Below are positions 57,508-64,000 of a DNA stretch of 64,000 nt, one piece after another. Position 1 is the stretch's first letter. Each line of letters starts with the position of its first letter. The notes below the pieces were generated by a model. The model did no database searches, had not been told where the DNA came from, and saw only the letters and a list, made by a program, of their open reading frames with translations. Source of the DNA: Symmetrospora coprosmae (Eukaryota > Basidiomycota > Cystobasidiomycetes > Symmetrosporaceae); the NCBI GenBank assembly GCA_008802785.1, contig VUYT01000019.1, positions 343,039 through 407,038 of the forward strand, read 5' to 3'. Both the position numbers and the translations under genes were made by a program.

Positions 57508-60500
57508 TCAGAACTTGCTGAGGTCCCTTCCCCAGATGCCTCGCTTGATCCAGTCGACCATGAGGAGTAAGCGCGTGCGCATGCTGACGCCCTCGCTCCA
57601 GTAGATGCTGCGCCACAGGTACATGGCGGCAAGCCCGCCGGCGAGGTTGTAGCCGTTGAAGTCGAACACGGCGGAATTGCCAATGTAGGCAAGCGAACCG
57701 AGGTGCCTGTAGCTGAAAGGCTCGTAGAGGATGTCATCGCTGCAACCACAGGTGCATTAGCGAGAACGGGCGATGATATACATTTGTTTGAAGATAACGC
57801 ACATATCATCCTTGATGTCCATGTTCTGCAGCTGGGTGTGTCCCGTAGCCGCGAGCTTCTTGAGCTTCTTGCCAAGGTACTTGCCCTGCTGCTCAGCGAC
57901 TTGTGCGGTCTGAGAAGGCAGCTCGTGGAACGCTCAGTCGAGCGAAGTAGAGGACGCAGGCTGAAGCACTACTCACAGCAGGCAGCGCCGTCAATCTCCC
58001 TGAAATCTTGGCAAACATACTCGCCAGCTCGTTCAGGCCGATCGCCCCATCCTTGTCGGCGTCGTACTTCTCGAAGACGTCCCTGACCTTCTCGATATGC
58101 AGCTGAGATGTGGGGAAGAGGCGGCGAATGCGCTTGAGCATGTCCTCGAACTCTGCGAAATCAATGCGTCCGCTGTGGACGGACCGTGGCGGAGAAGCCG
58201 TTAGCCTCATCCTTGGGTCTCTCGATATCTGGGTCAATCGTATCTACGCACTCCTTGTTGCCACTGCGAAGAGACAGGTGCACAAGTGCATCGCGCACCA
58301 TGCGAGGAGGACGATTCAGCTGGTGTAGCTAGCATCAATGGCCTTTGGTGTCGGACCCGCATGCACGCACTCGCACTGGTCGATCAGCTCCCAGAGATGG
58401 TCGACGAGATTCGTCTCGATGGTAGAAGCGTCACCGATGCAGTAGACGGTGCCAGTCGGCGCTCCAATCACACGGAGATGGGAGTCAACCTCGAGGGCAT
58501 GCTTGTGGTACTGGTTGGGAAGCTTGGAGGCCACGAGCTTGGTGAAGGGGTTCATAGCTGCGACACATTGGCAGCATCAGTCAGTATAACCAGTGCTCAT
58601 GTGGAACGAAGTGCTCGCCACTGACCGATACCAGTAGACCAGAGCGTGAAACCACAAGGGATGGTGTGCTCGGACGTCTTGCCTTCCTTGTCCTTGGTCG
58701 TATAGGTGACATAATCTTTCCCGACCTCCTTCACCCTTGCATTCACGATGGTGTGAATACCATGCCGGTCAAAGCGCGCCTCTGCGTATTGTGAGATACC
58801 CTCGGAGTATGTGTTGAGGATATGGTCTCGGGACTGGATGATATGCACACGGGCTTGTGATCGGAGCAGCTTCGGGAACTGCCAGCGGGAGTGGTAGAAT
58901 GTGTTAGGGCACGCTCCCTGAGGTATCGCGTTGCCTGGGCTATGTCGCTCACGTAATCTGCAGAGGACGATGACGACGCGGGTAGCACGGTTCAGCGGCT
59001 TGGACCATTCTTCACTGAGGCCTTCCCCTCGCACTCACCCATGATATCTTCGTTGATCATATCGTACAGCTCGCTAGCAAACTCGACGCCTGTGGGGCCG
59101 CCTCCGCAAACGACAAAGTTCATGAGCCGCTTCCTCTCCTCCTCGGATGTCGACGGCAAGCTGGCAATCTCGCAGTTCTCGACGATGCGATTTCGGATCT
59201 GGCGCGAGTCGTCGATCGTCTTGAGCTGATTGCAGTTCTCGAGGCCTGGCACTCCGTGGTCGTTTGACACTGAGCCACACGCGATGATGAGCTTGTCGTA
59301 CCTGGGTGACTCGCATGCCAGCGTCGGCATCAGCCTTGTCAAGGGACAAGAAAGCGGGAAACCTTACGGAACATAGAAGTTCTCTCCAGTACCAGGAGCG
59401 CTGACCTCCAGCAGCCGTTCGCTCATATCAATGTCGATCGCCTTGGCCTGCAGGAAGTGGCCCTGCACGCGCGCAATGATCTTTCGGATGGGCTCGACAA
59501 GCGATCGCGGCTCGATGGTACCCACAGCCGCTGAGGCTGGAGAGGTTGCAAGTGCACTTGCCTCAGCTCGAACCAGCGGATCCTTGAAACTTGGCGCCTG
59601 GTCGTAGACACTCACGCAGGAGGGGCGTAAAGAGGTTGTAGTTGGACTCGCCGACGACTGTAACGTGGTACGCTCCAGGTGGGAGACCTTTGATGACACC
59701 GACTGCCTGTAACCAAGAAGTCACGGTCGCATGGTCGATACTTAGCAAGTGCTGACCACTTTCTCCAAGCGGACAAGCGCGCTGCACTCACGCCCCAGCC
59801 GCCTCCAACGATGACAAGCTTCGGCTTGTCCTCCATTGCCTTGATCTCCTGTATGGCATCGGACGAGGGCACAGACGTGTGAGCATACAGGGACACTACG
59901 CAAAGCGCTCTGAGCTCGCGCAAAGCTCATGACACCCACATCACTCTCCTCGTCGCCCACGAGGAACTGTGCGATCTTCAAGTTCTTGGGTCCGCCTCGG
60001 GTAGGATTCAGCGCGAGCGGGTTGACTGGAACCCCTTCGACGTGTTTTGTCTTGTACGTTGTGGCGTCCCAGGCAAGCAAGCCCCCAATGACAGTGACGC
60101 CACTGAAGACGATGGAGAGCAAGGCGCGGACAGGCCATTTGATCCAAGGGTTGTAGCCGGAGAGTGTGACCCTCGCGATGAGGGAGCGACGCGACTGTAC
60201 GACGGGCTGACCTGTAGCTGCTGCTGCCGTCGAGCCAGTGCCTGACGAGGCGTAACGAACACTCGCTGACAGCGCCGTGCCTGGCAGCTTCCCAGCGGAT
60301 CGTCGGCTCGCAGGGAGGAAGGACGGTAATCCGCCACGCAGCAATGCAGCAGATGTGCTTCTGCTGCTGCATCTGCTCGAGGCATAGCTGCGAGCTGACA
60401 GGGCCAGCGAGCGGCTTGCGACTCCATGACCTATTCTTGACGTCGTCGTTGTCGCGAAGGGGCGCATCGCCGGAGCAGTCGCGCTCATTGAGAGGCGCGT

Positions 60501-60512
60501 TGAGCGCAGCAT
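57508..60512 (-). CDS. EF-hand type II NADH:ubiquinone oxidoreductase
   Basis: Twelve exons, complement of 57508..57739, 57803..57909, 57977..58172, 58252..58263, 58371..58557, 58626..58878, 58953..58957, 59039..59301, 59368..59536, 59616..59706, 59792..59848 and 59940..60512; 714 aa. A long Ser/Arg/Ala presequence and a membrane-like segment (VRALLSIVFSGVTVIGGLL) precede the FAD site VIVGGGWG, YNLFTPLLPSAAVGTIEPRS, the NADH site FVVCGGGPTGVEFASELYD and GFTLWSTGI. EF-hand loop DGNKDGRIDFAE and a second loop DADKDGAIGLNEL lie between the halves of the enzyme, as in N. crassa NDE1. The C-terminal amphipathic block ends KRGIWGRDLSKF. Calcium-regulated external NADH dehydrogenase is the best call. 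Two microexons (5 and 12 nt) are needed. An upstream in-frame Met at 60533 is possible. Confidence 0.9.
58252..58263 (-). other. 12-nt microexon encoding EF-hand loop core
   Basis: Between a CTTCGCAG acceptor and a GTGCGT donor. With split codons on both sides it supplies the D-G-N-K-D part of the calcium loop. Flanking introns are 107 and 79 nt. Skipping it keeps frame but destroys the loop. Confidence 0.75.
58953..58957 (-). other. 5-nt microexon in NADH dehydrogenase
   Basis: Minus-strand ATTAC, between a CTCTGCAG acceptor and a GTGAGC donor. It completes Asp and adds Tyr, giving NEDIM-DY-FPKLLR as in homologs. Flanking introns are 81 and 74 nt. Confidence 0.75.
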
Positions 60513-60811
60513 GACGGCGGGTACGACGAGCACGAGATGTGTCCTTCTGCTGCCGTGCGGGTCTCCTGTATAGACGATTCCCTGCTACTTGGTGATGGCG
60601 AGACGCACAGGAGAGAAGCAGTTGTCCTTCACATGCCGTCACTCGCCGCAGTCAGCTGCATTACCATCAACGAGGCAGCTGTTAAGTTACAAGGAAGCCT
60701 TTACGAGGAAACCCATGGGTATATTTGTATGTCGGAGTCCGATCTGCGCAGCCAATCTTTCCTACGAGGCGTACTCTCAGCCAATGCATATGACCAGCCT
60801 CGCCAGTGCTG
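60513..60811. promoter_or_regulatory. Fanzor 3' flank and NADH dehydrogenase promoter
   Basis: 299 nt between the Fanzor stop and the NADH dehydrogenase start, both minus strand. It must hold the dehydrogenase promoter. By analogy with known Fanzor/TnpB loci it may also hold the end of a guide RNA and of a transposon. I could not identify a terminal repeat. Confidence 0.4.
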
Positions 60812-62673
60812 CTATGACCCTTCGACCTCTGCTCTGGCGACCCGATATGGGTGTTGGCCGTGCACGAGGATGTGTGCCCCAATCTGCGCAATGTTGAAGG
60901 CGGCAAGGACGTCTCGGTGCCAGATCTTCTCGCACGTTTCGCACTGCAGCAACCTGTAGACGGGGCCTCTGTTGTCGATCCAGCGCAAGTAGTGCACCCT
61001 GGGAACAATGTCGTCAGATGAGGAGCAGAAAAGTAGAGCGGCAGATACTCACAAGCTTCGCGGCCAATCAGCTCGCTCTTGCATGTTGTCTTCGGTGCAT
61101 CTGCCATCCGTCTCGAGCTGCTCGCGCCATTTATCGCCGGGCGGTCTGCGACAGAGCGGGTTGGGGCAGACTTGCGAGCTGTAGGCTTCGTCGACCCAGA
61201 CAGACAGCACGGGCCACTTGTGACTTTCCATGCGGCGGATGATGGCTCGCAGCAAGGGATTTGCATAAAGCGGAATCTTGTTCTTGCGGCCGACAACGTC
61301 AAACTCGCAGCCGTTGCCAATCTGGAAGAGGCGGGGAGGAGCGAACTTGCGATCTGCCCTGCGGATGTTGGGGAACAGAGCGTTGCCTAGTTGCTCAAAG
61401 CAGAGATCTGCCATCTGCGAGTGCATCCGGTACTGGTCGAGCTTGATGCGGCCGTAGCGAGGATCGGACTGGATGAGGCGGAGGTGATGAGCGACGGACT
61501 TCTTCAGAACCACGAGCTGTTCTCTTGCCGGGGCCGACACAATCGCCTGCTCTTCCTTCTGACGTATGGTTGCGTGCAGCAGAGCGAGATTGACGGGGTA
61601 CTTGGCTTGAAGGGCGGTCTGCTTGCGGCTGGCCGATTTCCTCGAGCTATCTCGGCCGCTGGACGAGAGGACGAGGCTGTAGCTGAGATCCTCCACGGCA
61701 TCGCGATAGCCGACCGCCAGCGAGAAGATCACGCCGGTGTCGCAGCCGGCCGTAGCGGTGTCGTCCACCAACTTCTGGACAGACCATTCCCTGGCGGCCT
61801 GTGGCCTCGACTCTGAGCTGACAGGATCCGTTCCCTCGGTGCCGTCTCCCGCCTCCGCTCGCCGAGCTGCACACCATGCAAGGACGATGGAGATGACCTT
61901 GGCTCGTCTCGCCGCTTGCCTGCCTGCGAGCCTCGTGACCTTGTGCGCTCGCGCCAACTGCTTGACGGCCGCGTCGTAACTGCCACCCACATCTGCGGCA
62001 AGCGGAGCTGGCTCGGGTTGCCTGGCTCGCGACTGCCAGGCATTGAGAACGGGAGCGACGCTCGCAAACGCGAGAGCGCCGATAGATGACAGGAGTACAT
62101 CGGTTGCCCTGGCACTGGTGCGCTGGCTAAGACGATGGTGCTGGCTGCCGGCGTGCATATCTCGCAGGCGCTCGAGCGTAGAGTCCTTGGTTGCCGCCGA
62201 CAAAGTTTCTACCGACGCGAGAAGGCCGTTGACTTGCTTGGTGACTCGGGGTGGCTCGATCTGGATCAGCTGCTGGGACCAGTGACCCTGCTTGGCGTTG
62301 TGAACGCGATGGCGGAAACGGCGTCGACGCCCGCGACGATCCTGGCCCTTGTTGACCGACCGTATTTGTGGGATTGGGACAGCGCCGACGGTGCGTCCAG
62401 GCATCCTTGGCATGGCAGTGACTTCACGCGAGCCGAAGATGAGCTGACCGGCGCTGTGTATCGCCACAGTCTGCACCTGACGCGGCTGCCACCGCTTGCG
62501 CCCACGACCGTCCTTGCGAGCTCGTGGCCGGGGGCGATAGCGGTACGCTAAGCCGAGCCTGTCCTCTTTCGCTGCACGATGCTGACGGTCCCGCTGTGCT
62601 TGCTGACGGCGGAGCTCTATCCTCTCCCTGGTCCCGAGCGGTACCGGCTGCTGGCCTCCCGCTTGCGACGGAC

Positions 62674-62708
<35 letters not shown>

Positions 62709-64000
62709 GGCGGGGCACCGGCAGCGTTGATGCTCTCGAGCGTGCAGAACGACGTCTTGGTGACGACGACAGCAGCTTCGAAGGTCTCTGCTACAGTGAG
62801 ACACTCGGCCGGTCTGCGCAACACGGTGCCGGTGCTCCTCAGCTCCTTCTCCGCAATGTAGTCGCACACCTTTTCGCGGATGGCGTCGGTGTAGGTGATG
62901 GAGCGGATGTCGAGAGTGCGAAGGCAGACGGCGGTACCATCCGTCTGGAAGGTGCCCTGCCAGAGATGCCCGGCGGGAAGCTGCTTCTCGTCGAAGAGAA
63001 CGCACATCAAGGGGACGCGGTAGGTGACGGCGGTGGAGCCATCGCGGGGACAACCTGTCCGGCGTACGATGTCCGTGCCAATGTCGGCAACGGCTGCCAG
63101 CCACTCAGCCTGAGGCGACCATCCGAGCCCTTCTCTGCAGAACGCGCGGTTGCGGTCGAGGAAGCCGGAGGAGTGGGTAGAGGCGCTCGCTGGAATCTGA
63201 AAGACCTGGCTGTAGAGCTGCGAGAGCCAGCGGAGGGCGGCAGGGATGATCACCTGAGACTGCTTGAGGAGGGCGTATAGATGCACGTATCCGAACGAGA
63301 TGAAGGACTGGGACATGTTCTGCCAGCGGAACGGACGTCAGCTCGGAAGAACGTGGCAGTACCAGCCAGGCAGACCCACCACGCGGAAATTCTTGCCGAG
63401 CGCCCCAAAGAACGGCACCAACCGCCCGGACGATAGATCAGAGAGCTGGAGCAGAGCCTCGAGGGAAGACGCGTTCGTCTGAAATGGCAGCCTGGGCAGC
63501 ACGCTGGCGAATCGCTCCAGGAAGGTGTCGAAGTTGGCTTGCTTCTCCGCAGATGTGCCGCAACGCCGATGCATCTTCCGCTTCCAGTCGGCGGCTTTGA
63601 CATCCTGCAGCTCGGCGCCCAGAAGGAGCTCAAAGGCCACGTCCCATGCAGACGCACAGACAGACTTGAGCTGATTGCGAAGCCAGGTCCGCAGGGCAGC
63701 CTTGCTGCGCATCATCTTCTGGTGCACGCTGATGCGGAAGAAGTCGCTGACCCACTCGTCCGCTGTGCCAGGCAGAGAGGGCAGCAGCGGCTCGCTTCTG
63801 CCTTCTGTCATGATGGAGATGACGTGCAACAGGCAGGGGTCTGCGTGCTGAGCGGTCTCTGTTCCGGCTATGACGAGCTGGGCGAGGGTCGAGTGGATGT
63901 GATGCCTCTCTAGGAACCCCAGCTGTCAGCACGTATGCCTCTGCAGGCTCAGAGCCGCTGGCTCCTCCGGAAGCTGTCCGCACCGTCGGACGGGGGACGG
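60812..64000 (-). CDS. Fanzor-type (eukaryotic TnpB/OMEGA) nuclease, 5' end outside window
   Basis: Partial: complement of 60812..60998, 61053..63319, 63380..63909 and a fragment 63984..64000; at least ~990 aa are in view. Introns are 54, 60 and 74 nt with GTGAGT, GTGGGT and GTGCGG donors. The C-terminal third has the RuvC/TnpB arrangement: RuvC-I strand GCDTGVIFSLAVG (Asp at 61739-61741); VDEAYSSQVCPNPLC, with the shifted RuvC-II-type Glu at 61187-61189 and the first zinc-ribbon Cys pair; LQCETCEKI, the second Cys pair; then WHRDVLAAFNI with the RuvC-III Asp at 60911-60913. This matches Fanzor proteins, RNA-guided DNA nucleases carried by eukaryotic mobile elements. A polyQ tract and a basic Arg/Lys-rich region lie upstream. 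All three catalytic acids are present. A related TnpB-like domesticated protein is the main alternative. Confidence 0.85.
62682..62703 (-). repeat. CTG/CAG tract encoding polyQ in the Fanzor gene
   Basis: About seven CTG triplets on the plus strand, within a longer Gln run on the minus strand. It sits between the N-terminal helical domain and the basic region. Confidence 0.85.

Follow-up and report, generated by a model that had tools for sequence, protein, structure and literature searches.

In the accessible part of one survey (PMC10711439), the fingerprint of Fanzor proteins is a DPG motif, nearly but not absolutely exclusive to them, combined with a relocated catalytic Glu; Fanzor1 proteins carry TDG in their WED domain and reach lengths of up to ~800 residues. 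The motif of Bao and Jurka, as given in the available part of their paper (PMC3627910), is D-X(125,275)-[TS][TS]-X-X-[C4 zinc finger]-X(5,50)-RD. SpuFz1, according to the part of its description at hand (PMC10432273), resides in a 2.1-kb element with 30-nt inverted repeats, and the scaffold of its omega-RNA spans 75 nt at the right end and is followed by a guide of 14-15 nt. Here, we analyzed a stretch of 64,000 nucleotides (the window) from the basidiomycete Symmetrospora coprosmae, which forms the end of the 407,038-base contig C10 (VUYT01000019.1; G000:C10:343039-407038). We think it probable that the window encodes the C-terminal portion of an RNA-guided protein of the Fanzor1 type, very large and with introns in its gene, which has a FEN1/XPG-like N-terminus in its relatives and is encoded in a ~15.3-kb mobile element together with a helicase.

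Like Fanzor1 genes, including those of SpuFz1 and GtFz1, the gene is multi-copy and is followed, downstream of its stop codon, by a conserved noncoding right end. Unlike SpuFz1, it appears to belong to a multi-gene element of ~15.3 kb in which no terminal inverted repeats (TIRs) were seen, and its relatives differ from Fanzor1 in their FEN1/XPG-like N-terminus. With TnpB and the IS200-IS605 OMEGA systems, the element shares a conserved right end after the nuclease gene, the lack of visible TIRs or target-site duplications (TSDs) and a guide that would come from the flank; it differs in being eukaryotic, in its introns and relocated Glu, in having no recognized TnpA, and in its helicase and FEN1-like parts. 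Helitrons end in CTRR, encode Rep and have a 3' hairpin. For the remaining Helitron features we follow the accessible part of PMC3627910: like Helitrons with Fanzor1, the element shows no TIRs or TSDs, a 3' terminal hairpin and a helicase of its own, but this helicase is Upf1/Sen1-like, Rep was not recognized in the proteins scanned, and the ten right ends read finish in GCAGC or YGGC, not CTRR.

A Fanzor-type gene at the end of the contig

The gene runs on the minus strand, as do all features given below in window coordinates. Window base 64000 is the last base of contig C10 and the assembly holds nothing to its right, so the N-terminus of the gene is lost from the assembly. From open reading frames and splice sites, three exons give a partial protein of 998 amino acids. 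The first alignable exon (63380..63922, partial) aligns with copies on contigs C17, C74 and C55, after which we name them, and may represent a REC/WED-type region. The main exon (61053..63319) encodes TDG (codons from 62944), a poly-Q stretch (from 62704), RuvC-I, the relocated Glu and the first half of the zinc ribbon, and the last exon (60812..60998) encodes the second half with CETC, RuvC-III within WHRDVLAAFNI, and the stop codon. The two introns, both GT-AG, measure 60 nt (63320..63379, GTGGGT..CAG) and 54 nt (60999..61052, GTGAGT..CAG), the latter interrupting the zinc ribbon. Both lie at the same sites in all three full-length paralogs, whose splice sites were picked by eye among conserved candidates.

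A first-pass annotation, made from the letters of the window, had named GCDTG, VDEAYSS, CPNPLC, CETC and WHRDVLAAFNI, and all five are present in one spliced minus-strand frame. Its junctions at 60998/61053 and 63319/63380 proved exact to the base, being the exon bases that flank the two predicted introns. The third intron it proposed, upstream of 63922, found no support: the three paralogs are open there, whereas in the window copy a TGA stands in frame at 63928-63926, some 75 bases short of the end of the contig. This site may reflect a copy-specific intron, a broken frame or a contig-end error.

The annotation's further claim, a Fanzor order of motifs with a complete D-E-D triad and the Glu moved beside the zinc ribbon, is borne out by the sequence. 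The RuvC-I Asp (codon 61739..61741, in GCDTG), the relocated RuvC-II Glu (61187..61189, in VDEAYSSQVC) and the RuvC-III Asp (60911..60913) are invariant, as are the four zinc-binding Cys, across four diverged copies (the window copy, C17, C74 and C55). The Glu precedes the first zinc Cys by six residues (ExxxxxxC) in all four after splicing, as it does in Fanzor1. Also shared with Fanzor1 are [ST][ST]xxC and an RD five residues past the last Cys, each kept in 4/4 copies, and TDG, kept in three and replaced by TNG in C55; the TDG site would mark the WED domain. The gap from Asp to SS is 186-194 residues in the copies, within the published range of 125-275.

The first-pass annotation had proposed profile searches as a check. 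PF07282 scored a sub-threshold 12.1 and 20.9 bits on the separate, unspliced exons, and 31.6 bits (E 1.9e-7) on the spliced C-terminus of the window protein, above its gathering score of 26.3. All four spliced copies matched the family at E<=10, the score being displayed for the first member only. A search of the unspliced genome with PF07282 returned two matches, neither above cut-off. We conclude from these comparisons that the window protein is a divergent Fanzor1-type protein, with DTG/DEG in place of DPG and a split zinc ribbon, and that the case for its Fanzor identity is strong.

An N-terminal FEN1-like region in the full-length paralogs

The paralogs on C17, C74 and C55 are complete, with predicted lengths of 1689, 1678 and 2046 amino acids, compared with up to ~800 for Fanzor1 in the part of PMC10711439 available to us. 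Their genes are predicted to have six exons and five introns at shared sites. The first-pass annotation, at over ~990 residues, had thus underestimated the size: the full-length relatives owe their length to an N-terminal FEN1/XPG-like extension, which in the window copy would lie past the contig end. C55 has a run of N inside an Ala-Glu repeat of this gene; the long (AE)n stretch with its assembly gap lies in the Fanzor coding exon, where the window copy has poly-Q instead.

The three proteins begin with MGITKG, MGVNKG and MGIQGI (C17, C74 and C55, respectively). The C55 start resembles those of the Rad2 nucleases (FEN1, XPG, EXO1 and GEN1), and a host gene of the XPG family, which we take for EXO1, also begins with MGIQG. 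VVD, FxDN, DEAD, DSD and GxDYxPxGxxGLG follow in this order in 3/3 full-length copies, and we take these ordered acids to correspond to the seven catalytic acids of FEN1. The likeness to Rad2 nucleases extends to FxDN where FDG sits, to the order of the DEAD, DSD and GxDY acids and to a PGGxxGLG-like stretch; unlike Rad2 nucleases, the copies score below family thresholds and are joined to a Fanzor in a mobile element. A pattern of DEAD-like, DxD and GxDY..GxGxG motifs, composed after the sequences had been viewed, matched all three copies, none of 60,000 shuffled N-termini and nothing in a six-frame control of 200,771 amino acids from the window and five loci. When a profile of the three N-termini was searched against the PDB, FEN-1 chains made up four of the five matches (E 0.0096-0.2). 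A longer N-terminal profile returned FEN-1 in four of seven matches, plus one GEN1 (E 0.049-1.3).

The FEN1-like part is in frame with the Fanzor part, and one unbroken exon, preceded by a conserved intron, spans the linker and continues into the Fanzor region. From this arrangement, the FEN1-like domain is likely joined to the Fanzor in one protein, and splicing would produce the fusion at the RNA level. Between C17 and C74, dN was 0.32 and dS 1.48 overall, with dN and dS of 0.36 and 1.18 for the FEN1-like part and 0.24 and 1.33 for the RuvC-zinc part; dS is near saturation here, and near or past it in pairs with C55, so that the ratios are rough. Both nuclease-like parts look constrained.

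The element, its copies and its right end

In C17 and C74, similarity runs colinearly, in pieces, from a left edge to a right edge. The left edge is GAAGCGCGCCTCCC at C17:146756 and C74:352192, the only two matches of this pattern in the genome (0 for the reversed pattern), and the right edge is GTAATGCAGC at C17:162020 and C74:367479. The element thus measures 15,265 bases in C17 and 15,288 in C74. The left edge is defined by these two copies, with an uncertainty of as much as ~10 bases: CAGCC, common to both, stands nine bases further out, so the edge could sit as many as ~10 bases outside. Between the ends of C17 and C74, the two elements with both ends, no inverted match exceeds 9 nt. TSDs do not stand out in either, the longest word common to the edges being 4 nt. 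This word, CAGC, is the same at both edges of both complete elements; its length alone is within chance, as 320 and 325 of 500 randomly chosen pairs of places shared a word at least that long.

Gene order is common to C17, C74 and C55, the last without its left end in hand. Upstream of the Fanzor gene (ORF3), all three carry a helicase gene (ORF1) and ORF2. ORF1 encodes a superfamily 1 helicase of the Upf1/Sen1-like type: AAA_11 and AAA_12 (PF13086 and PF13087) are above cut-off in both ORF1 proteins scanned, C74 and C55, with E 4e-11 and 1.4e-23, respectively, in C74. The nearest solved structures are SEN1 (the best), UPF1 and SMUBP2; unlike these helicases, ORF1 has a Fanzor gene as its neighbor and is part of a mobile element. 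Element-type ORF1 copies occur in C74, C17 (64%), C55 (45%) and C15 (37%), and the other helicase matches in the genome are shorter and 26-38% identical. ORF2 is related among C74, C17, C55 and C15 (31-50%), and in the three ORF2 proteins scanned (C74, C55 and C15) no Pfam match was above cut-off. In C15, ORF2 (L051:848-2548) begins near a CxxC pair; in C74, an open stretch immediately upstream contains a CxxC and might be an earlier exon. Inspection by eye showed a small, divergent ORF0 at the left of C17 and C74, to which C55 may have a counterpart; the part of the C74 ORF0 that was scanned has no Pfam match. A BRCT-like reading of the stretch behind ORF2 in C55 was unsupported.

The 20.05-Mb, 77-contig assembly was searched by protein and DNA pattern, followed by reading of the stretches; the counts are lower bounds. 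Element sequence was found at at least 13 places. Complete ORF3 copies are those on C17, C74 and C55; those on C13, C28, C76, C34 and C73 are cut by a contig end, as is the N-terminal part of the window copy on C10. The C15 copy has the helicase and an incomplete ORF2 that breaks off where the contig ends; it is possibly the left half that one of the cut copies lacks. At C12:203.7-203.9 kb (L043:7675-7922), a copy with an internal deletion retains some of the last exon, a 3' stretch that is repeated in part, and a right end that is intact; it resembles a non-autonomous derivative. Degraded fragments lie on C5 and at C12:17.6 kb. Seven of the 13 places are within ~4.4 kb of a contig end (C10:407038, C13:1, C15:309149, C28:186129, C34:155623, C73:10206 and C76:1), a pattern to be expected of an assembly that breaks within these repeats, and the true copy number is therefore probably higher than counted. 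Matched copies are 36-61% identical to the window protein. At their right ends, C34 and C73 share 97% identity with C74 over 77 and 79 nt, a sign of recent spread.

The fragment at C5:33683-34074 (L013), VDEAYTSQCCPDPSC..CEKC..FNRD, comes immediately after a long open frame that does not resemble Fanzor; stops interrupt the match, so it is a relic or a capture. A match at C38:88518 was discarded, its frames being judged by eye to show a chance similarity within another gene, and weak helicase matches on C44, C65, C28, C33 and C22 were excluded from the copy count. Viral relatives were sought by sequence pattern, with 21 and 150 stretches matched and none confirmed.

Right ends were located by pattern at six places (reversed pattern, 0), and the ten right ends read finish in GTAATGCAGC or TAGYGGC. 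In seven right ends of one type, all 21 pairwise comparisons show the same last 10 nt, and identity over the first 10 nt beyond is 26%, the random level; C34, C73, C74 and C12 are nearly identical among the seven and hence non-independent. The right boundary is thus exact and the flanks are unrelated. In the window, the conserved noncoding right end occupies 60655..60711 and is 79-89% identical to those of C17, C74 and C55 (gaps uncounted), whereas the proteins share 37-48% identity in the RuvC region; it has a possible terminal hairpin, GCTGC..GCAGC, at 60679-60655. It resembles the SpuFz1 omega-RNA in position and length. By this analogy, the right-end hairpin region is a candidate omega-RNA with a guide read from the flank, and the guide of the window copy would run from 60654 downward, with the first ~16 nt of the outside flank (60639..60654) as its predicted sequence.

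Minimum-energy folding gives the terminal stem in 8/9 right ends, the exception being C10; the stem is also absent from the fold of C76 when this is folded with its flank. The C13/C28/C76 subfamily keeps the pairing in all three of its stems, GCCGTT/AGCGGC, GCCGCT/AGTGGC and GCCATT/AGTGGC. C13 and C28 are identical at 78/79 positions of the 3' untranslated part, 14/17 within the last 18 positions and 349/370 in coding and intron sequence. At the C73 copy (C73:10.1 kb, minus strand), the flank just outside the right end repeats TGCAGCACTGCCCC, the first six bases of which are the element's last six; this may hint at target choice or at local duplication.

Proposed mechanism, alternatives and neighboring features

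The predicted gene structure, the conserved acids, the gene order, the exact right boundary and the signs of purifying selection are sequence-based observations. We infer RNA guidance, the guide, the enzymatic activities, the division of labor and the mode of transposition along the following lines. The omega-RNA scaffold would be the 3' part of the transcript as far as the right-end hairpin, and the transcript would continue into the flank, so that the guide is taken from the target site. The Fanzor part would cut DNA matching the guide, namely an allele or sister that lacks the element. The helicase could then clear the R-loop and the FEN1-like domain trim the flaps, after which host recombination would copy the element into the break, leading to its retention or to spread by homing. 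A bolder proposal, which we put forward tentatively as possible but doubtful, is a transposase-free RNA-guided homing element of eukaryotes, 15 kb long, with its own break-and-copy kit and a guide read from the insertion site. In such a homing element, the kit would consist of a single protein with both the FEN1-like nuclease and the Fanzor, and of an R-loop-type helicase.

Several results weigh against a Fanzor1-type protein with a FEN1-like N-terminus in an RNA-guided mobile element. On the Fanzor side, DPG is absent from 4/4 copies (DTG in C10 and C55, DEG in C17 and C74), the first zinc pair is Cx4C and the zinc ribbon holds an insert of 51-57 residues, all three being departures from Fanzor1. 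Because of them, the strict published Fanzor pattern, with its first CxxC, matches none of the four copies; the Bao and Jurka pattern fits 4/4 if a Cx4C first pair is allowed and the middle spacing relaxed. As DPG is absent, we file the protein as a divergent Fanzor-type protein and not as a typical member. PDB profile searches with the Fanzor part returned no Fanzor or TnpB chain up to E 10, and their weak matches to unrelated chains were set aside. The NCBIfam TnpB model scored 15.8 bits against a cut-off of 100, and a single-sequence AlphaFold model of one exon, the RuvC exon of the window, was too unreliable for use (pLDDT 37.8). On the N-terminal side, the best PDB match of the profile (E 0.0025) is an unrelated repeat protein, Pfam XPG was matched in none of the three copies and NCBIfam nuclease families in neither of two, and hhalign against the host XPG family gave E 0.0037 with a probability of 8.9% (4.3% with the longer profile; a control with the Fanzor profile gave E 0.73). 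Since the XPG match is below thresholds, we call the region FEN1-like and not a family member. At the right end, the window copy has no terminal hairpin in its minimum-energy fold. Five pair measures on the seven-row alignment were reached by 15, 371, 107, 500 and 57 of 500 shuffles, and after a one-column shift of this alignment double changes are more numerous than in the structure itself, so that covariation on it is not beyond controls. In the element, no transposase or recombinase was recognized in ORF1 (two copies), ORF2 (C74, C55 and C15), one C55 stretch and part of ORF0, other frames being unscanned; a Rep/HUH endonuclease was likewise not found by Pfam in these proteins, the frames having been scanned in part. 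ORF2 and ORF0 matched no recognized family. The near-saturation of dS counts here too.

In an alternative reading, a divergent Fanzor1 is cargo of a large DNA transposon, its N-terminus an unrelated extension and the right-end hairpin a site for a transposase or recombinase rather than an omega-RNA. According to the part of PMC3627910 available, Fanzor1 occurs in many transposon classes, and elements with tyrosine or serine recombinases lack TIRs and TSDs; the low hhalign probability and the sub-threshold XPG homology fit as well, and CAGC, which marks the two edges of the C17 and C74 elements alike, might serve as a recombinase core, though its length is at chance level. But the enzyme such cargo calls for was not recognized in the proteins scanned, the seven N-terminal acids stand in order in all three copies with FEN-1 recurring among the PDB matches, and the conserved end is like the SpuFz1 omega-RNA in position and length. 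We consider the cargo reading rather unlikely, if still to be reckoned with. That the motifs are a chance set of Asp, Glu and Cys, and the protein not a Fanzor, is hardly credible: the unspliced exons score below threshold and the RuvC-I and zinc spacing is atypical, but PF07282 reaches E 1.9e-7 after splicing, and the D, E, four Cys and D, with the six-residue spacing, are kept in four diverged copies.

Two further alternatives concern the fate of the gene. The first-pass annotation had allowed for domestication, in which the Fanzor would serve the fungus and no longer be mobile. Purifying-selection signs in the full-length copies agree with this, as does the 36-61% identity to the window protein, by which the copies are old. 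Set against it are the 13 places, several with only right ends or fragments, the ends that stop exactly at unrelated flanks, the deleted derivative on C12 and the recent spread indicated by C34 and C73, and we regard domestication as very improbable. Whatever holds for the rest of the family, the window copy itself could be a dying pseudogene with its frame broken near 63926 and without a protein product. Its TGA at 63928-63926 falls where three paralogs are open, and degraded relatives exist on C5 and C12; but 998 residues are open with all catalytic residues and splice sites, the TGA lies close to the contig end, where errors are common, and an intron specific to this copy may also explain it. 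A pseudogene is possible, if somewhat doubtful.

If the Fanzor1-type protein with a FEN1-like N-terminus in a helicase-bearing element is correctly read, it would be, as far as the literature searched reaches, the first Fanzor reported to be joined to a second nuclease-like domain and to travel with a helicase. That literature, which left out most subscription papers and the bioRxiv papers outside PubMed Central, yielded no paper on Fanzor with XPG or with a basidiomycete. In the accessible parts of the papers found, Fanzor with FEN1 gave an unrelated mention, and Fanzor with superfamily 1 gave nothing on a Fanzor-linked helicase. One paper calls viral proteins 'Fanzor flap endonuclease homologs', and its available part does not describe a fusion. 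The use of a Fanzor to its transposon becomes testable here: do a FEN1-like domain and a helicase turn RNA-guided cutting into copying? The predicted Fanzor-type proteins are about twice the described size, and their DTG/DEG and split zinc ribbon are departures that published pattern searches would miss.

Scans of the window gave no Rfam match at the gathering score and no tRNA. A host gene on the same strand (57893-60512), with pyridine-nucleotide and EF-hand domains, adjoins the element's right end. It probably starts at 60512 and, by reading of its domains, would be an alternative NADH dehydrogenase. The element ends ~140 bases upstream of the probable first ATG of this gene.

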